IMG/VR virus record: IMGVR_UViG_3300044953_000377
Coordinates: 84,218-148,217 of that record
Direction: 5' to 3' (one strand)
DNA length: 64,000 nucleotides
Origin: a virus
A program made the position numbers and the translations under genes. Under the pieces are notes generated by a model, which did no database searches, was not told the origin of the DNA, and saw only the letters and a program-made list of their open reading frames with translations. Of this stretch, positions 13,583 to 64,000 are shown piece by piece; positions within the stretch are counted from its first letter, which is position 1, and each line of letters opens with the position of its first letter.

Positions 13583-14989
13583 ATGATCATAGATATTGAG
13601 AATACAGGAAATGGATTATCTGTTTCACATTATACAGAGGAAGGAGAAGTTAATTTATTGAAAATTCAGGTACCAAAGCATCTACAATTTGTTTGGCAAA
13701 AAACATTGGAGAACGACAAAAGTAAAGATAAGGAATGGAGGTCGTGGGACAATTTTCCTGTGAAGAAAGTTAACACTAGTAAGTTTGACAAGTATAGGGT
13801 GGTAGAAATATTAGAAGCTATAGATCCTGAAATAACAAAACCCCTTTGGGATTACCAAACTCCAAAAAAATACTTTGTCGATATAGAGGTTGAAATCACG
13901 GATAATCGTGCAGATTCTTTAGATAATGAAAACTCTAAGAACCGGGTGCTTTCAATAGGAATGGCTTCTTCACAGGGAAAGATCCTTGTTATTGGACTTG
14001 AAGATATTCTTCAGGATAAAATATTAAAAATAGAGAAAAGGATAAAGGAGCACTTTAAAGATCAAGCAGGGGAATGGACTTTTAATTATAGGAAGTTTGA
14101 GACTGAGTTTGATATGCTTTATACTTTCTTCTCTAAGCTAGTTCCTAAGATGCCTTTGATAACTGGGTGGAACTGGTTTGGATATGACTGGCCTTATCTT
14201 ATCAATAGAGCAAAAAGATTAGGAATAGATCCAAAAATAGCTTCACCTAGTGGAATTCTCTTAGGAATGAATCAGATTCCGATGCACATTTTAATGGTTG
14301 ACTATCTTGACATCTATAAGAAATGGGATAGGGTCATAAAGATCAGAGAATCTAACTCATTAGACTACGTTGCTAATCAAGCTATAGGAATAAAAAAGAT
14401 TTCTTATAGTGGAACATTAAAAGATTTATACGAATCAGATTTTGAGACATTTATCTTTTATAACGCAGTCGACTGTGCTTTAGTCCATTATATAGATAAA
14501 AGGTTGGACACCCTTTCAACTTTCTTTAAAATTGCCGAAGTTAGTAGAGTGGAAATAAACAGAGCTTTATCCCCGGTATGGACTACTGAGGTACTGATGC
14601 TAAGAAAATTCTTGGAAAGAAAAAGAGTTATTGTCAACGAGAGAAAAGGAGAATCTCATGTAAAGTTTGAGGGAGCTTATGTTAAGAAGCCAGAGAAGGG
14701 ATTATACGAATGGATTGCTTGTTTTGACTTTGCCTCCCTATATCCTAATACAATGATGCAATGGGGAATTTCTCCTGAGGCTTACATAGGAAAAAATCTA
14801 AAGGAAATACCTGAAGGAGCAATAAAGACCTCCTCGGGAGCAGTTTTTTATAATAAAGATGGGCAAGAACCTATACTTAGAGAAATATTGAAAGGACTTT
14901 ATTCTCAAAGAAAAGCTACTAAGAAAAAATATTTTGAGTGTGAAAAGGAAATAGAAAAAATTAAAAAAGAAATAAAATTAAAATCATAA
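13583..14989 (+). CDS. 43A: DNA polymerase family B, N-terminal half (gp43A-type): exonuclease domain and palm motif A
   Basis: A protein of 468 residues. Exonuclease motifs are clear: FVDIEVE (Exo I), GWNWFGYDWPYLINR (Exo II) and YNAVDCALVHYID (Exo III). Polymerase motif A is CFDFASLYPNTMMQWGISPE. The protein then ends after a Lys-rich helix (RKATKKKYFECEKEIEKIKK), before motif B. Motifs B and C are in separate genes at 34595 and 36462. The end has no intein sequence, so this is a two-gene polymerase like the gp43A/gp43B split known in some T4-like Aeromonas phages, and the halves should associate non-covalently. ATG 13583 is preferred over the earlier in-frame start at 13508, which lies in the divergent gene's 5' region. 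Confidence 0.9.
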   Translation: MIIDIENTGNGLSVSHYTEEGEVNLLKIQVPKHLQFVWQKTLENDKSKDKEWRSWDNFPVKKVNTSKFDKYRVVEILEAIDPEITKPLWDYQTPKKYFVDIEVEITDNRADSLDNENSKNRVLSIGMASSQGKILVIGLEDILQDKILKIEKRIKEHFKDQAGEWTFNYRKFETEFDMLYTFFSKLVPKMPLITGWNWFGYDWPYLINRAKRLGIDPKIASPSGILLGMNQIPMHILMVDYLDIYKKWDRVIKIRESNSLDYVANQAIGIKKISYSGTLKDLYESDFETFIFYNAVDCALVHYIDKRLDTLSTFFKIAEVSRVEINRALSPVWTTEVLMLRKFLERKRVIVNERKGESHVKFEGAYVKKPEKGLYEWIACFDFASLYPNTMMQWGISPEAYIGKNLKEIPEGAIKTSSGAVFYNKDGQEPILREILKGLYSQRKATKKKYFECEKEIEKIKKEIKLKS

Positions 14990-14992
14990 ATT

Positions 14993-15457
14993 ATGGCAAA
15001 CACAGATAACAAATGTTCAGATCTTTCGGTGGAGGATTTTTACACGGGGTCTGAAGACACTTTAGGATTAGTTTACAACAAACAAAAAGAACTCCAGGAA
15101 AGGTATGGGTTCGATTTCAAAGATTGGTCTATCAAACAGATATCAGATTTTTGGATGGTCAATAAGCACGCACTTGGTGATGAACTAAATGAAATGTTCG
15201 ATGCACTGGGAGGAATTAACGATGGTATAGGATCTGCTGGTTGGAAATACTGGAAAGGCGACAACAAAAAAACAGAGACTATGAAAATCTCAGATCTTTC
15301 AGAAGCTGACAAGTTGGAGCTATATTATGAGTGGATAGACGGATTACATTTTTATATGAACTTCGCTATTTCTATTGGTATGACAAGTAAGGATATTGTT
15401 AATCTTTATATGTCTAAACATAAAGAAAATCATAGAAGACAGGATTCAGGATATTAA
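14993..15457 (+). CDS. dUTPase, all-alpha dimeric type
   Basis: A protein of 154 residues. The order EKxxxLQxxY-like segment, DELNEMFDALGG, WKYWKGD, LYYEWIDGLHFYMNFAISIGM and a C-terminal NHRRQDSGY matches the dimeric all-alpha dUTPase family (MazG-related), with the Glu/Asp residues that bind magnesium. It hydrolyses dUTP to dUMP, which keeps uracil out of DNA and feeds dTMP synthesis. It lies 3 nt downstream of the polymerase half, close to the ribonucleotide reductase genes. Confidence 0.8.
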   Translation: MANTDNKCSDLSVEDFYTGSEDTLGLVYNKQKELQERYGFDFKDWSIKQISDFWMVNKHALGDELNEMFDALGGINDGIGSAGWKYWKGDNKKTETMKISDLSEADKLELYYEWIDGLHFYMNFAISIGMTSKDIVNLYMSKHKENHRRQDSGY

Positions 15458-15480
15458 AATACAGATTCTCGTATTTCTTT

Positions 15481-15489
15481 GATATATAA
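15481..15489 (+). promoter_or_regulatory. Late-type promoter element
   Basis: GATATATAA ends 3 nt before the ATG of the broken GIY-YIG gene at 15493. Confidence 0.45.
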
Positions 15490-15492
15490 AAA

Positions 15493-16355
15493 ATGAAAGC
15501 TTTTGTATATCTTTGGACTAATAGTAAAAATCTTATGTTGAATCTCATATAGGAGATATGGATGATGGATACATAGGATCTGGTAAATATTTTATTAATT
15601 CATATAATAAAAATCCTGAATTTTTTTCAAGAGAGATATTGGAGGTTATAGAAGGTCCATACGTAAAGGAAAGAATAAAAGAAAGATAGGAATATTATTT
15701 AGATCTTTATAAGGTTTCAAAAGATCCTCTATATTATAACATAAGTAATAGGTATTTTGGAGGCGATGTTTATTCTGGATTAAGCGAGGAGGATAAAAAA
15801 AATATGATTAATAAAACAGTCGAAAAAACTAATGAAGATAGAATTAATAATCCGGAAAAATGGAAAATGATATACAGTAAAATGTCCAAATCAAAAAGGG
15901 ATAAATCATTACCAGTTAATCAGTTTGATAGTGAAGGAGTATTTATTAATTCTTATTCATGTATAGAAGAAGCACATGAAATAACTGGAATATCTAAAGG
16001 AAATATCCATTCCGCTATAACAGGTAAGAGAAATAGTGCAGGTGGATTTAGATGGTCGTTTACAAAAGAACCGAATAACATTGTTAGTAAAAAATGTGGA
16101 AGGCCTAATGGAATTAAGAATAAGATTAAGATTGAAAGATCACATACTAATATAAGAAAAATGCAGGTAACTCAATATGATTTGTTTGGTAATTTAATTA
16201 AGATTTGGGAATCAGCATCCGAAGCATCTAAAGAATTGGCCCTAAGCTCCGGATGTATAACACATTTTGTTAATGGAAGAAAACCAAAGTCTGGAAACTA
16301 TGGTGGATTTATATGGGAAAAAGGAAATTATATCACATATACTATATACGAGTAA
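15493..16355 (+). pseudogene. GIY-YIG homing endonuclease with NUMOD1-type repeats, broken by a frameshift and a stop
   Basis: The start MKAFVYLWTNSKNLM is the GIY-YIG beta-strand with the usual Y-L-W-T-N. The expected continuation (VESHIGDMDDGYIGSGKYF) is in the +1 frame, so one base appears to be missing near 15530-15540. Further on, the frame meets TAG at 15687-15689 (KERIKER*EYYLDLYKVSKDPLYYN) where relatives have Glu or Gln. From 15804 a long frame encodes two NUMOD1-like DNA-binding repeats (VNQFDSEGVFINSYSCIEEA..., VTQYDLFGNLIKIWESASEA...). It sits directly upstream of nrdB, a common target of phage homing enzymes. The two lesions make it a decaying gene unless they are sequencing errors. 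Confidence 0.75.
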
Positions 16356-16367
16356 TAAAATAATATT

Positions 16368-16376
16368 AATATATAA
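16368..16376 (+). promoter_or_regulatory. Late-type promoter element, variant
   Basis: TAATATATAAAA, one base away from GATATATAA at its core, lies about 10 nt before the nrdB ATG at 16387. Confidence 0.35.
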
Positions 16377-16386
16377 AATAAAAAAA

Positions 16387-17367
16387 ATGGAAAAATTATT
16401 GACACCCAATCCTAAAAGATTCTCGTTGTTTCCCGTTCAACATCACGACATGTGGACAATGTATAAAACAGCTGAAGCATCTTTTTGGACAGTAGAAGAA
16501 ATAGATCTAGCTCAAGATATAACACACTGGAGAGATAAATTAAACGATAACGAGAGATATTTTATTAAGCATGTAATTGCTTTCTTTAATAACTCCGATG
16601 GAATTGTAAATGAAAATTTAGCTGCAAACTTTTTTAATCAAGTACAATATCCAGAGGCAAGATGCTTTTATGGATTCCAATTAGCAATAGAGAACATTCA
16701 CGGAGAAACGTATTCTCTTCTTATTGATTCCTATATAAGAGACGGAGAAGAAAAGGAACATCTATTTAATGCTATTGATACTGTTCCCTCAGTCAAAAGA
16801 AAAGCTGATTGGGCTATGAAATGGATAGAGAAAGGGTCATTCATAGAAACATTAATTGCTTTTGCTGCTGTGGAAGGAATCTTCTTTTCTGGATCATTTT
16901 GTTCCATCTTCTGGTTAAAGAAAAGAGGACTAATGCCAGGACTATGTTTTGCTAATGAACTAATATCTAGAGATGAAGGATTACATTGTGATTTTGCTTG
17001 TTTACTTTACACTAGTCACATCGAAAACAAACTTCCAGAAGAAACAGTTGTCAAGATAATTAGTGAAGCTGTAGAGATCGAAAAAGAGTTTGTTACTTCA
17101 TCATTACCTGTAAGACTTATTGGAATGAACTCTGAGCTTATGTGTCAATATATAGAATTCGTTGCTGATCGTTTGCTAATTTCTTTAGGGTGTAATAAGA
17201 TTTATAATAATAAATGTCCTTTTGATTTTATGGTTAACATAGCCCTTGAAAACAAAGGTAACTTCTTTGAAGGAAGAGTGGGTTCATACCAAAAATCCGG
17301 TGTTATGGACAGTACTAAAGACAATAAAGATTCTGGTAAATCCTTTACTATGGATGCTGACTTTTAA
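16387..17367 (+). CDS. nrdB: Ribonucleoside-diphosphate reductase, beta subunit (class I)
   Basis: A protein of 326 residues. Di-metal ligand motifs are in order: [45 protein letters not shown] (with the likely radical Tyr in CFYGFQ), [11 protein letters not shown] and [11 protein letters not shown]. The enzyme makes deoxyribonucleotides with NrdA, encoded 487 nt downstream. ATG 16387 is preferred because the longer frame overlaps the broken endonuclease. The length is typical of class I beta subunits. Confidence 0.92.
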
Positions 17368-56568: not shown

Positions 56569-57012
56569 TCATAAAAAAACCCGTTGTTTAACCATCAACT
56601 TAAATAACCTCTTAGTTGATACATCATCTATAGAACCCACCCAGGATTGACCCCAATCTCCTGATGTGTTAAACATATATTTTCCACCCCCTTGATATCC
56701 AAGCATAATCTTACTCTTTCCATTATTAAATTGAACTGAAGGATGTATCTTAATTCCCCGATCAGATAATCCCAAAGTAATATTACCTCCATTATTAAAC
56801 TGAACGCCCTCGGGAATATCACCTAACTCTTTAATAAAAACATAACCCTTGTTACTAAATATAACACCAGAAGGCAATGCCTTGACATGCTGAATAGTCA
56901 CGTTCCACTTATAAGCAAGAACATTTGATCCAGTGATCTCAATCACATCACCAGATAAATTATAAGCGATCTTATCCTGATCTAACTGTTCTATAAACTC
57001 CTCCCTTGTCAT
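56569..57012 (-). CDS. Beta-solenoid-like repeat protein (minus strand)
   Basis: A protein of 147 residues. After a short helical start (MTREEFIEQLDQD) it has repeating rungs of about 20 residues: LPSGVIFSNKGYVFIKE, IPEGVQFNNGGNITLG, IHPSVQFNNGKSKIMLG. The end is DDVSTKRLFKLMVKQ. It is a close paralogue of the gene immediately upstream (57009-57418), whose restored stop overlaps this ATG. Function unknown. Confidence 0.6.
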   Translation of the reverse strand: MTREEFIEQLDQDKIAYNLSGDVIEITGSNVLAYKWNVTIQHVKALPSGVIFSNKGYVFIKELGDIPEGVQFNNGGNITLGLSDRGIKIHPSVQFNNGKSKIMLGYQGGGKYMFNTSGDWGQSWVGSIDDVSTKRLFKLMVKQRVFL

Positions 57013-57418
57013 ATAAATATACCTTGTTTTATCATCAAGTTCAATAATCTCTTACTACCTATTCCTTCTACATGGGCTTTAAACCATCCTTCAACTAATG
57101 AGCCCAAAACGACATCCCTTGTATTCTTGAACTCCAGCCCAGGGGAATCTTCTTAAATGAGCCCAAAACGATATACCCTTTATTCTTGAACTCCACCCCA
57201 GGGGGAATCTTCTTTAATGAACCCAATGAACCCAATTCGACATGCCCTTCATTCGAAAACTCCACCCCAGGGGGAAGGACCTCTAATGAGCCCAAAACGA
57301 CATGCCCTACATGGGTAACAACTAGCTTATCTGCTTCTTCCCTATAGGAATACCCTCCCTTGTCTCTGTAGGAATACCCTCCCTTGTCTAATATTCTCTT
57401 AAACTCTTCTTGTGTCAT
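57009..57418 (-). pseudogene. Frameshifted beta-solenoid-like repeat protein (minus strand)
   Basis: The annotatable frame stops at 57095, but removing a one-base deletion in a G5-to-G4 run near 57134-57140 continues the protein through LEFKNTRDVVLGSLVEGWF... to GIGSKRLLNLMIKQGIFI and a stop at 57009-57011. That stop overlaps the next gene's ATG (ATGA), which supports the restored frame. It has a tandem KGGYSYR repeat near the start and rungs such as LPPGVEFSNEGHVELGS. The lesion may be real or a sequencing error. Confidence 0.6.
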
Positions 57419-57431
57419 ACTCTAATATATC

Positions 57432-57920
57432 TTATATATCTGACAGTACCCTATTTAAGTCCTCTCTAGAAAACCCATTAGGAAGAGCCATAATCTTGTC
57501 CTTAATCTCCTCTGTTATTCTAGCCCTGATACTATACCTCTGATAGTGCTCACTGTTTTCGTAATGAGAAGACCACTCAAGATTATCTATATGATTATTC
57601 TTCTTATCTAGATCCTTATGATTAACTACTAGATCCTGACATCCCTCCACAGGCTTAAATGTTAACATCACCAATCTATGTACAAAACTCTTGGTGTCTC
57701 TTAGATGAACTTTATAGTAGCCAGTATAATGATCCTCAAGTTTTATTAGATTACCCCTCGGTCCTAAAACATTACCTTTAATAGAAACACAATACCCTGC
57801 AGCATCAGGAATCTCCTTATATAAATCTCCACCAAATATCACAATCTTATCATCCGACGAAAGATGTAAATCTGGTAACTTTGCTAGTAGATTATCCACA
57901 CATTCTTTGATTATATCCAT
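57432..57920 (-). CDS. HNH homing endonuclease with NUMOD4-like N-terminal region (minus strand)
   Basis: A protein of 162 residues. YKEIPDAAGYCVSIKGNVLGPRG is a NUMOD4-like motif (W/Y-x-x-I-P... Y-x-V-S-x-x-G-x-V). VHRLVMLTFKPVEGCQDLVVNHKDLDKKNNHIDNLEWSSHYEN is the HNH_3 core (N-H-x-D-x-x-x-x-N-N-x-x-x-N-L-E-W). It is a small free-standing homing endonuclease at the edge of the intergenic island. Confidence 0.8.
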   Translation of the reverse strand: MDIIKECVDNLLAKLPDLHLSSDDKIVIFGGDLYKEIPDAAGYCVSIKGNVLGPRGNLIKLEDHYTGYYKVHLRDTKSFVHRLVMLTFKPVEGCQDLVVNHKDLDKKNNHIDNLEWSSHYENSEHYQRYSIRARITEEIKDKIMALPNGFSREDLNRVLSDI

Positions 57921-58612
57921 ACACTTTTTATCTTATTTATCCCGCCGGACCACGATTTCCCCGGGGTCCCCGATTTCACTACCCAATTTCGCCTCATTTT
58001 TCCATTTCGCCTCGCCTTCGTCTCGTTACCTTAGCTTAAACCTCCACAAAGCGCGGAATAGAAAAATCCCCGTTTAGTCCCCCGATTTTTCTATTAAAAT
58101 CCCCCGAAATTTCTACCCTAAAAATGGGGGGACAAAACACCAAAAATCCCCCAAACACGCCCCCGCTCTTATAGACAATAATATTATCACTACCCCTATA
58201 CATAAGCACATACATATACCACTACCTATACAGTACACCATACACATATACACTAGACAAGTACCTACCCACATAAACACACATACCTTAACTAAACTAA
58301 TAAAAACAAAAAGAATCACCATTCCTACTATAGTACATAGTATACCTATACCTATATAGACACCTACCCCTACTGTATACACAACCCATATCCCTACTAC
58401 ATGTCAAAGGGGACGTATAGTAGACCCCTTGCTCACACGTATACGCGTTCTTATAAGTAAGACCCTCAAGGGGTTTTTCTCAGCGTCCCGTGCAGCTAAA
58501 ATACTCTCAGATAACTACCCCTTTAACCTCTCGTGGAAAGACCCGTAGAATATACCACAGAGCGAGCAAGGTTAAACCCACTTTCTACGTGCACCTCGGA
58601 AGGCCCCCAGGG

Positions 58613-58648
58613 GGTCCCCACGTGGTCCCCACGCGGTCCCCACGCGGT
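58613..58648 (+). repeat. Three tandem 11-bp repeats
   Basis: GGTCCCCACGY occurs at 58613, 58624 and 58635, nearly identical, starting the repeat cluster of the intergenic island. Confidence 0.8.
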
Positions 58649-58649
58649 C

Positions 58650-58765
58650 AATTATCTGGGATTATCTGGGAATTTCCTGGATATCTAGGATACCTTCTGG
58701 GAAACTTCCGTGGATTCTCTAGGATTCCCCTGGATATTCTTAGAAATTCTTGGAAAATCCCCGAA
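58650..58765 (+). repeat. About eleven degenerate 9-12 bp repeats (A/T segment plus CTGG/CTAGG)
   Basis: Successive units such as ATTATCTGGG, AATTTCCTGG, ATATCTAGG, ATTCTCTAGG, ATTCCCCTGG and AAATTCTTGG alternate A/T-rich and G/C-rich halves at about one DNA helical turn. Confidence 0.7.
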
Positions 58766-58952
58766 TGCGTGCGAGTGCGGGGGCGAATCCGGGTGATCCC
58801 GGGGGTCACAAAAATATTTGGTGGGGGATTTACTTTTTGATAAACTTTTTATATAATTGAAATATTATAAGAAAGGAAGGAAAATCAAGGAATCGTTTTT
58901 TTCTTCCGAGGAGAACTGCTAAATTTGCAAAAAACTAAAAACGTAAAAAGCG

Positions 58953-59330
58953 ATGATTATAAAAAGAAAAAAAGAAACTCCCCCGAACGATTCTCGTCTG
59001 TGGTCTAAGAGAGATCGTAAGACTTTGAAGGCTATGGTGAAGGAGGGTAAGACACTTAAAGATATCGCAGAGGAGCTTGGGCGAACCCCTGCTGCTGTGC
59101 AATATCAGAAGAGTGCGATGGGATTGGTTAAGACGGTGAAGGAGAAGAAGGTGAAAATGAAGACTAAGGAAGGTAATAAGATTGAAGTTAATGTGTCTGC
59201 TGAGGCTCTCTCTGATAAGGAGATGAGTCCTAGGGATAATTCCAAGGAGTTGGCGAAGGTTGCTCGGGGAATAGCCAGGGCAAATGGTAAAAGGATAACG
59301 ATGGCTATGTTCTTTGTTGAAGATTTGTAA
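58953..59330 (+). CDS. Putative helix-turn-helix regulator (SANT/GcrA-like)
   Basis: A protein of 125 residues. RLWSKRDRKTLKAMVKEGKTLKDIAEELGRTPAAVQYQ is a clear Myb/SANT-like helix-turn-helix. The rest is Lys-rich then acidic, ending KRITMAMFFVEDL. A similar domain occurs in the next gene 20 nt downstream, so the two are probably an operon of related regulators. Confidence 0.65.
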   Translation: MIIKRKKETPPNDSRLWSKRDRKTLKAMVKEGKTLKDIAEELGRTPAAVQYQKSAMGLVKTVKEKKVKMKTKEGNKIEVNVSAEALSDKEMSPRDNSKELAKVARGIARANGKRITMAMFFVEDL

Positions 59331-59350: not shown

Positions 59351-60010
59351 ATGGCAAAACAAATTCCAAGAAATGTAAAGGTGGCTGCTATGAAGGCATA
59401 TGTGACCGATGGCAAAAATTTAAAAGATGCTGCGATTGAGCATGGGGTTAGTCGCGAGAGTCTTCGTAGATGGTTAGGTGGCAAGGTGCGTAAGAAAGGC
59501 ACTTACGTTAGAAAAGGTAATAAATCGGTGGTTGATCCAAGCTCTTCTATTAGTCGAGCATCTATGATTGCACTTAAGCCTAAAACATCTAAGGCGTCTT
59601 TGGAGAATACCCGCTCTAATAAGCGATGGACTTTGACTGAGGACGAACTACTAAGAGACGCGGTTCTTAGCAAGATGACTGTTAAGGAGACCGTTGATTT
59701 ACTAGGAAGAACCTCCGTGGCTATTTGCTGTCGTAAGAACCATCTAATCGATAATAGATTCATTAACGAGACGAGTAAGTTTGTAATGCCGACAGGCATC
59801 AAAAGAGTGCGTAAGAAGATGGAGACTCCTTTCGATACTGCTGAGGTGGAAGCTATCATGGATATCCCTGCGGATGAGCCATTACAAGAATCTAATGGGG
59901 CTTACCAGAACATTGAGCTTTCCGATCTTGCTAAAATTGTCCGAGACTATGGTGTTAACATCACTGTGTCTATGACATCCCGAGGTATGGAGGTTAAGAT
60001 GACGAAATAA
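59351..60010 (+). CDS. Two-domain DNA-binding protein (transposase-type HTH plus SANT-like HTH)
   Basis: A protein of 219 residues. AAMKAYVTDGKNLKDAAIEHGVSRESLRRWLGG is a HTH_psq/transposase-like helix-turn-helix. RWTLTEDELLRDAVLSKMTVKETVDLLGRTSVAICCRKNHL is a SANT-like HTH matching that of the upstream protein. No transposase catalytic domain is present. It is likely a transcription regulator of the right-hand region. Confidence 0.68.
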   Translation: MAKQIPRNVKVAAMKAYVTDGKNLKDAAIEHGVSRESLRRWLGGKVRKKGTYVRKGNKSVVDPSSSISRASMIALKPKTSKASLENTRSNKRWTLTEDELLRDAVLSKMTVKETVDLLGRTSVAICCRKNHLIDNRFINETSKFVMPTGIKRVRKKMETPFDTAEVEAIMDIPADEPLQESNGAYQNIELSDLAKIVRDYGVNITVSMTSRGMEVKMTK

Positions 60011-60956: not shown

Positions 60957-61487
60957 ATGAAAGACACTACCAAAGTTGCAGCATTAGCGGTCGCGAGGAA
61001 CATCGCAGACAAGCTTTACGAGGGTAACGACGTGAGCAAGCGTATGGGACGTATACTAGCTATATCAGCAGCGGTTTTAGAAAAGAGTGATGCACGCTTT
61101 GATAGAATGCGGGAGGATCTACAGAGTGTATACGAGGAGATGAGCCGTGTACATAATAAGTTGTATCAGGATTTAGGAGGGCAATTAGGTTCTGGTGAAT
61201 TCTTCGGAGTGGACATAGAGGATCTCGAAGGTAAGACGGATTTAAACTTTAAGAGGTTGGTTGATGGAATCGACCCAGATGGATTTATGCACCTTCAGAT
61301 TTCTCTTGGGGGATTACGAGAGCTTATCGCTAAACTCGCAGGAGGTGTTCCTTTTAAAACCCCGGATTTGGTTTTCGTGGAGCGGCTTCAGTTCGCCCAT
61401 TGGTTGACGTTCATGAGTCTGTACGAGAGTAAGCACCGAGACAAGGTTTTAAAAATAATCTCTAAGTACGATCCAAAAGCTTCTTAA
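60957..61487 (+). CDS. Unknown helical protein
   Basis: A protein of 176 residues. Mostly helical, with repeated Arg/Glu positions (RFDRMREDLQSVYEEMSRVHNKLY) suggestive of a coiled coil. No family recognised. It is expressed from its own host-type promoter. Codon use is more GC-rich than in the left part of the window. Confidence 0.6.
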   Translation: MKDTTKVAALAVARNIADKLYEGNDVSKRMGRILAISAAVLEKSDARFDRMREDLQSVYEEMSRVHNKLYQDLGGQLGSGEFFGVDIEDLEGKTDLNFKRLVDGIDPDGFMHLQISLGGLRELIAKLAGGVPFKTPDLVFVERLQFAHWLTFMSLYESKHRDKVLKIISKYDPKAS

Positions 61488-61523
61488 ATCATTTTTTTCT
61501 TTAAATAGAATTTTCCACATTTG
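61487..61523 (+). promoter_or_regulatory. Early (host-type) promoter
   Basis: AATCATTTTTTT begins at the last base of the previous gene; a 17-nt spacer leads to CACATTTG, which ends 15 nt before the ATG at 61539. Confidence 0.65.
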
Positions 61524-63327: not shown

Positions 63328-63364
63328 AATCATTTTTTTAATTAAATAGAATTTTCTACATTTA
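63328..63364 (+). promoter_or_regulatory. Early (host-type) promoter
   Basis: AATCATTTTTTT, a 17-nt spacer and TACATTTA, ending 4 nt before the ATG at 63369; the mRNA would be leaderless. Confidence 0.7.
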
Positions 63365-63368
63365 CAAT

Positions 63369-64000
63369 ATGAAATTAACACAAGAACAAATCAATTGGCT
63401 TAACAAGTGTACTAAAGGAACTTGGACACTTAACGAGAAAACAGGATTGGTTGATGTGAAGGGGGATTTCTATTGTAGTGAACAAAATCTTGAGGACTTT
63501 AAGGGGGTTAGATTCGGAACAGTTACTGAGGGTTTCTATTGCCGGAATAACCAGCTCACAAGTCTAGTGGGAGCACCACAAAAGGTTGGATGGGCTTTCT
63601 TTTGCGAGCATAACCAGCTCACAAGTCTAGAGGGAGCACCACAAAAGGTTGGATGGAGTTTCCTTTGCGAGCATAACCAGCTCACAAGTCTAGTGGGAGC
63701 ACCACAAGAGGTTGGAGGGGATTTCTCTTGCCGGAATAACCAGCTCACAAGTCTAGTGGGAGCACCACAAGAGGTTCGAGGGAGTTTCCTTTGCGAGCAT
63801 AACCAGCTCACAAGTCTAGTGGGAGCACCACAAAAGGTTGGACGGGGTTTCGATTGCCAGAATAACCAGCTCACAAGTCTAGTGGGAGCACCACAAAAGG
63901 TTGGAGGGAGTTTCTATTGCGTGAATAATAAAATCTCAGAAGGGACTCTAAAAATAATATGGAAATTTATGAGTGAGAAGAAGGTGGATTACTGTACGGC
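63369..64000 (+). CDS. Leucine-rich-like tandem-repeat protein (3' end outside window)
   Basis: A frame of 210 codons up to the window edge. After 60 residues (MKLTQEQINWLNKC...) come six near-identical 21-residue repeats with the core NQLTSLVGAPQKVG and an F-x-C, followed by a diverged seventh unit at 63927. The units look like short leucine-rich or beta-solenoid rungs (L-x-x-L ... V ... F-x-C) and are related in style to the repeat proteins at 56569-57418. Proteins of this kind are frequent in phages and mobile DNA, possibly binding other proteins. Confidence 0.8.
   Translation, partial: MKLTQEQINWLNKCTKGTWTLNEKTGLVDVKGDFYCSEQNLEDFKGVRFGTVTEGFYCRNNQLTSLVGAPQKVGWAFFCEHNQLTSLEGAPQKVGWSFLCEHNQLTSLVGAPQEVGGDFSCRNNQLTSLVGAPQEVRGSFLCEHNQLTSLVGAPQKVGRGFDCQNNQLTSLVGAPQKVGGSFYCVNNKISEGTLKIIWKFMSEKKVDYCT
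63549..63926 (+). repeat. Six tandem 63-bp coding repeats
   Basis: Units start at 63549, 63612, 63675, 63738, 63801 and 63864, each 63 bp and nearly identical at DNA level. Such identity implies recent expansion or gene-conversion-like homogenisation. A diverged unit follows at 63927. Confidence 0.9.

Follow-up and report, generated by a model that had tools for sequence, protein, structure and literature searches.

A gene-free gap of 1,032 bp between two divergent gene blocks raises the question of what so long a stretch of non-coding DNA does in a phage genome. The gap, hereafter the island, occupies positions 57921-58952 of the window analyzed here, a 64,000-nt stretch (84218-148217) at the right end of a virus contig that is 148,217 bases long. 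As the original prediction stated, it divides open reading frames (ORFs) on the minus (57432-57920) and plus (58953-59330) strands, and its neighbors are an HNH gene reading to the left and two HTH (D5-like) regulator genes reading to the right. Of the roles then proposed, an origin or a regulatory site acting at the DNA level is the best supported, while packaging found no specific support. The more telling features than those stressed earlier are an 80-bp core, a segment with an 11.7-bp period, a G-poor, TpA-rich stretch, and a pair of promoters at the island's edges.

The phage is an uncultured T4-related jumbo phage. It encodes topoisomerase II subunits of the T4 type, 29% identical to those of T4-like phages, together with a split DNA polymerase, ribonucleotide reductase, and a Dda-like helicase, and a comparison with 50,697 phage records gave no DNA similar to it. 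For comparison we used three further large-phage contigs, with island loci L002 (contig G1), L003 (contig G2), and L047 (contig G7). G1 (206,617 bp) is a close relative that shares the last 80 kb of the window contig and extends 119 kb beyond it, and a DNA comparison of the first 68 kb of the window contig with G1 gave no large match, so that the overlap points to a genome of probably at least about 275 kb. The early promoters combine a T-run with a TAnnTTTG-like box, which we take to be of Bacteroidota type, and this suggests a host in that phylum. In the helicase gene (phrog_16), the listed window ORF (1097-2035) is shorter than its G1 counterpart (14881-16422), with 312 versus 513 aa.

With respect to base composition, the interior of the island has a GC content of 0.446, compared with 0.33 on its left side and 0.42-0.44 in the right flank. 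GC content goes up at the island and remains high through the early block, so that the island stands at a composition step and is not an isolated composition island; the difference in composition claimed for it holds toward the left but not toward the right. The island coincides with a switch in gene strand and a flip in nucleotide skew. In cumulative skew, proposed earlier as a check, the GC skew extreme of the contig lies elsewhere, and the skew tracks gene strand.

The whole island is kept at the same genomic place in all three relatives, conservation being a key test named with the original prediction. Identity is 87% for L002, about 63% for L003, and 61% for L047 (the last figure spans the whole island and runs into the next gene), and at fourfold-degenerate sites of the neighboring genes it is 82%, 36%, and 46%, respectively. 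Within the island, identity to each of the two distant relatives (L003 and L047) is 80% for block 58115-58154, and for core block 58555-58594 it is 75% and 78%, respectively. Because both blocks far exceed the 36-46% seen at fourfold sites, the comparison indicates that the island DNA itself is under selection. The 80-bp core is 84% identical to that of L003, whereas the adjoining D5a protein is 49% identical. Furthermore, the left neighbor varies, being an HNH gene in the window and L047 and other genes in L002 and L003, and the island persists regardless, with module order and place alike in all four contigs. No such island was seen in the 10-20 kb examined from each of the distant ATPase relatives L004-L016, the exact core patterns occur in these phages only among the viral contigs and in none of the genome contigs, and the island was matched to no known family.

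The left part of the island begins with a C-rich segment of TTTCGCC-type units (57942-58045), in which TTCGCCYCG is present in all four phages save for single changes. It is followed by a segment (58046-58170) in which A/T-runs alternate with C/G-runs at a period of 11.7 bp. Nowhere else in the 148-kb contig is A/T-versus-G/C periodicity between 9 and 12.5 bp as strong as in the 110-bp windows from 58064, which reach a power of 17.0 at a period of 11.7 bp. This power is matched by 1 of 1,000 dinucleotide shuffles, and the C-run/A-run alternation reported earlier is thereby confirmed. Across the four phages the period is 11.7, 11.6, 11.8, and 11.6 bp (0-1 matching shuffles per 1,000), and the segment ranks first or second among the periodic windows of each contig. 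In a test for 12-nt repeats, this 11.6-11.8-bp periodicity proved in all four to come without a fixed 12-nt repeat sequence.

The stretch said to be nearly free of G (58163-58412; 6% G on the plus strand) is indeed the contig minimum, with 12 G in 250 bp. It is a contig extreme in all four phages and a candidate unwinding element: purine-pyrimidine alternation reaches 0.62-0.65 against a mean of 0.43-0.44, the contig maximum in four of four (z 4.8-5.3), and TpA steps are about 1.6-2 times as frequent as expected. Given its GC content, the stretch is the weakest stacked or within the top 1%; in absolute stability it is not among the lowest (68th-99.5th percentile of 250-bp windows). Speculatively, the scarcity of C on the minus strand would likewise be consistent with prolonged single-stranded exposure of that strand.

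The conserved core (58543-58622) is present in a single copy per genome. It carries inverted half-sites CGTAGAA (58544-58550) and TTCTACG (58583-58589), one of which is changed in L047, as well as the palindrome GGCCCCCAGGGGG at 58602-58614; its CCCCCAGGGGG palindrome is found in three of the four phages. A phage promoter family was rejected as an explanation of the core, since its boxes occur once per genome. Overlapping its right end are four imperfect 11-bp repeats CCCCACGCGGT (58605-58649, plus strand), of which three had been noted before. The repeats are there, three to four of them, but they are not conserved in relatives, and a deletion at this place in the close relative marks them as a local expansion private to the window phage.

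Next to these, about eleven ATTATCTGGG-like units form an array on the plus strand (58650-58766); its 10.3-bp period is attained at the observed power by none of 1,000 dinucleotide shuffles, in agreement with the roughly eleven units of 9-12 bp predicted. Its periodicity is weaker than that of the C-run/A-run segment at 58064-58174. Comparable arrays at 10.3-10.5 bp exist in three of the four phages, L002 and L047 (5611-5822) having their own versions, and the phasing in L003 is not clear; the spacing near one helical turn is real as phasing, yet the array character is kept in only these three. DNA bending, which had been suggested from this spacing, was not confirmed as unusual: the predicted curvature of the array falls at the 88th-98.5th percentile of the window under two simple models, and we set exceptional bending aside. 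We also rejected the array as a genome-wide repeat, the other large motif matches resembling collagen-type coding repeats. An A+T-rich stretch common to all four phages (58826-58888, plus strand) leads to the right edge.

Each edge of the island carries an outward promoter. At the left edge, the late-like box GATAAATAAG (57932-57941, minus strand) stands 12 nt ahead of the start codon (ATG) of the HNH gene on that side, and both L047 and L003 have similar boxes at this edge. GATAWATA-type boxes occur at most 50 nt upstream of 42 G1 genes, against about 3.5 expected, and in the early region before 1 of 58; we call them late-like because they resemble the T4 late box and are common before structural-side genes, a name that reflects resemblance and gene context. 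At the right edge, in all four phages, is an early-type promoter, GAATCGTTTTTTT-N17-TAAATTTGC (58890-58928, plus strand), the first of the early block. This promoter, which precedes D5a, has a position weight matrix score of 27.2, compared with a mean of 10.7 and a 95th percentile of 37.8 in random 1-kb windows, the latter presumably high because true promoters are among them. It lacks the GTAGAA..TTCTAC palindrome that most other early promoters carry between their boxes and that may be an operator. An early-type promoter was not found on the minus strand of the island, and the plus-strand one points away from the G-poor stretch. With outward boxes at both edges, outward transcripts probably start there, and the 947-bp interior would not be leader RNA and is probably untranscribed.

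The island also marks the start of the block of early promoters. In G1, the interval 83101-120370 holds about 39 near-identical promoters (GAAATCATTTTTTT...GTAGAATTTTCTACATTAGC), every one of them on the plus strand, and the D5a promoter comes first; the G7 cluster likewise begins at the island, and a scan for a T-run and TAnnTTTG found a like cluster in G2. The early promoters (G1 L029-L031; window about 60590, 61485-61522, and 63328-63363) each stand ahead of a small gene. A CTGGGGAACCCCAGG-type palindrome is present in ten copies between terminator and early promoter at G1 intergenic sites (95073-120998) and is absent from the G2 and G0 contigs.

The two genes to the right encode candidate ligands of the island: D5a (58953-59330, plus strand; phrog_323, 2.9e-9) is a small HTH regulator with an invariant C terminus, NGKRITMAMFFVEDL, and D5b (59351-60010, plus strand; phrog_323, 3.3e-5) has two predicted trihelical HTH domains. 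The profile matches of these HTH genes are to transcription-regulator and DNA-binding families only, and no replication-initiator homologue was identified beside the island.

Taken as conserved and probably untranscribed DNA with a single core, phased arrays, a G-poor stretch, and HTH neighbors, the island is best read as a site of protein assembly and unwinding. The reading that we tentatively prefer, while placing it somewhat short of an even chance, is a multipartite origin of replication that doubles as the control region for the first early genes and would work somewhat as T4 origins do at transcription divergences. A DNA-binding protein of the phage, with D5a and D5b as candidates, would bind the core at the inverted CGTAGAA half-sites and spread cooperatively over both helically phased arrays; the 250-bp G-poor, TpA-rich stretch between them would unwind, through torsional strain or through an RNA hybridized to the plus strand, which contains C; a replisome would load there, and the two edge promoters, early on the right and late-like on the left, would fire outward. 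We count in favor of an origin the modules shared in order and place, the conservation of the core and the 58115 block, the period and the alternation common to all four phages, the weak stacking of the G-poor stretch given its GC content, the strand switch with its skew flip, the outward edge promoters, and the genes for T4-type topoisomerase II and Dda-like helicase. Against it we count the skew extreme lying elsewhere, the unexceptional absolute stability of the stretch, the early promoter pointing away from it, the differences from T4 oriE given below, and the distance of the replication genes, which lie tens of kilobases away. To our knowledge, origins of jumbo phages have hardly been mapped, and those of uncultured Bacteroidota-infecting lineages not at all; a conserved, sharply bounded origin candidate with testable modules offers a defined target and, if true, would show a T4-related replication system adapting its start sites to a different host.

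In iteron-type origins, such as those of lambda O and of plasmid initiators, repeats of near-helical spacing adjoin the gene for a DNA-binding protein and a stretch that unwinds. The island likewise has a near-helical array, an adjoining DNA-binding protein gene, and a candidate unwinding stretch, but its units are degenerate and come without an identified initiator homologue. The nearest comparison is with T4, in which three active origins, oriE, oriF, and oriG, coincide with places where transcription diverges and the skew shifts. Repeats of 12 nt at even spacing mark oriE, which requires an early promoter, and at oriF an unwinding element accompanies a promoter (PMC3016281). The island resembles oriE in lying at a transcription divergence with a skew shift and in having an early-type promoter, and its 11.6-11.8-bp periodicity may be comparable to the oriE repeats, whereas oriE is annotated inside gene 5 (NC_000866) and the island is 1 kb of non-coding DNA. 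A scan of the T4 oriE region found neither the A/T-G/C periodicity nor the alternation of the island. As in oriF and oriG, a promoter lies near a stretch predicted to unwind easily, and T4-type topoisomerase and Dda-like helicase are encoded here too, but the stretch is G-poor with TpA steps and not simply A+T-rich. The oriF promoter, furthermore, points into its unwinding element (R-loop type), whereas the island's stretch lies behind the mapped promoter; the arrangement of an R-loop origin, with the promoter directly upstream of the unwinding element, is not found in the island.

The main rival of the origin reading is purely transcriptional control, in which the island would be an operator or enhancer and an early-late boundary bound by the adjacent HTH proteins, with no role in replication. 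We regard this as somewhat less likely than the origin reading, even though the HTH genes always adjoin the island on the right, the two edges carry early-type and late-like promoters, and the half-site pair of the core is the very GTAGAA..TTCTAC palindrome of most early promoters that the D5a promoter is missing. The island measures nearly 1 kb and includes a compositional extreme of 250 bp, far more than the phage operators known to us, and the arrays and the G-poor stretch lie hundreds of base pairs from at least one promoter. The origin and transcription-control readings may also both be true together. A centromere-like or packaging site, at which a multimeric protein array would partition or package phage DNA, is very unlikely: repeats of some plasmid centromeres resemble the arrays of about 10-12 bp, but the units here are degenerate, unlike parC-type direct repeats, and the neighboring genes examined are HTH regulators, with no partition or terminase gene among them.

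In two further readings the island would be expressed. Folding of the plus strand at about 58602-58807 gives a single long hairpin, a rod built of the array, with z = -3.9 in the window, -3.2 in L047, and -2.3 in L002, and in these three the minus strand folds more weakly, the plus strand having more G-U pairs. A structured RNA gene is nonetheless quite improbable, since substitutions between the window and L002 break 9 pairs and keep 3 (null, 6.8 and 5.4), unit-order shuffles fold nearly as well in the window and L002, the rod is absent in L003, and a promoter for it was not found; nor did a search of Rfam give a match to the island above the gathering score. The long-hairpin RNA was rejected as folding well with pairs that substitutions do not preserve. 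That small ORFs at 58113-58382 (minus, a hydrophobic peptide) and 58490-58840 (plus) are genes is highly improbable. Minus-strand frames of 77-97 codons do recur in three phages, with lengths reached by only 1, 1, and 17 per 1,000 shuffles, but the L002 frame is interrupted by an in-frame stop, codon changes are 11 nonsynonymous to 1 synonymous with substitutions about equal across codon positions, and indels in L002 disrupt the plus ORF; on these grounds we rejected the coding reading.

A second, simpler non-coding island is located where the early block of G1 ends (122807-123520; L031:2807-3520). Its TTTTAGCCCCC-like units recur every 11.7 bp, and its GATATATAG box points outward. An early-type promoter directed inward has a terminator-like sequence a little way downstream, the two forming a short unit of early transcription that is possibly a small RNA; the G-poor alternating stretch is absent from this island. 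A related region in G2 (L041, about 102330-102500) is 69% identical over 175 bp, with an adjoining 12.5-bp alternation within 102330-103000. In G1, each of the two islands has an early-type promoter pointing inward and a late-like promoter pointing outward with respect to the early block, an arrangement that makes boundary elements or an origin pair conceivable. The idea of a bounded early domain, in which the islands would either act as boundary elements setting early transcription apart from late or serve as two origins, strikes us as improbable, and we know of no such boundary element in phages; if true, it would show whether the early and late gene domains of big phages have physical boundaries.

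Outside the islands, we observe a tandem family of leftward genes (MTREEFIxxLxxxGYSY...) with solenoid-like LPPGVEFNNGGDVYL repeats, all on the minus strand (L002:958-4805; L003:1599-3210; L047:1797-4417; window 56569-57418), their number differing between phages. In the window, an LRR-like protein with 21-residue repeats (NNQLTSLVGAPQKVGG) is encoded at 63369-63998, in a frame that reaches the end of the window.
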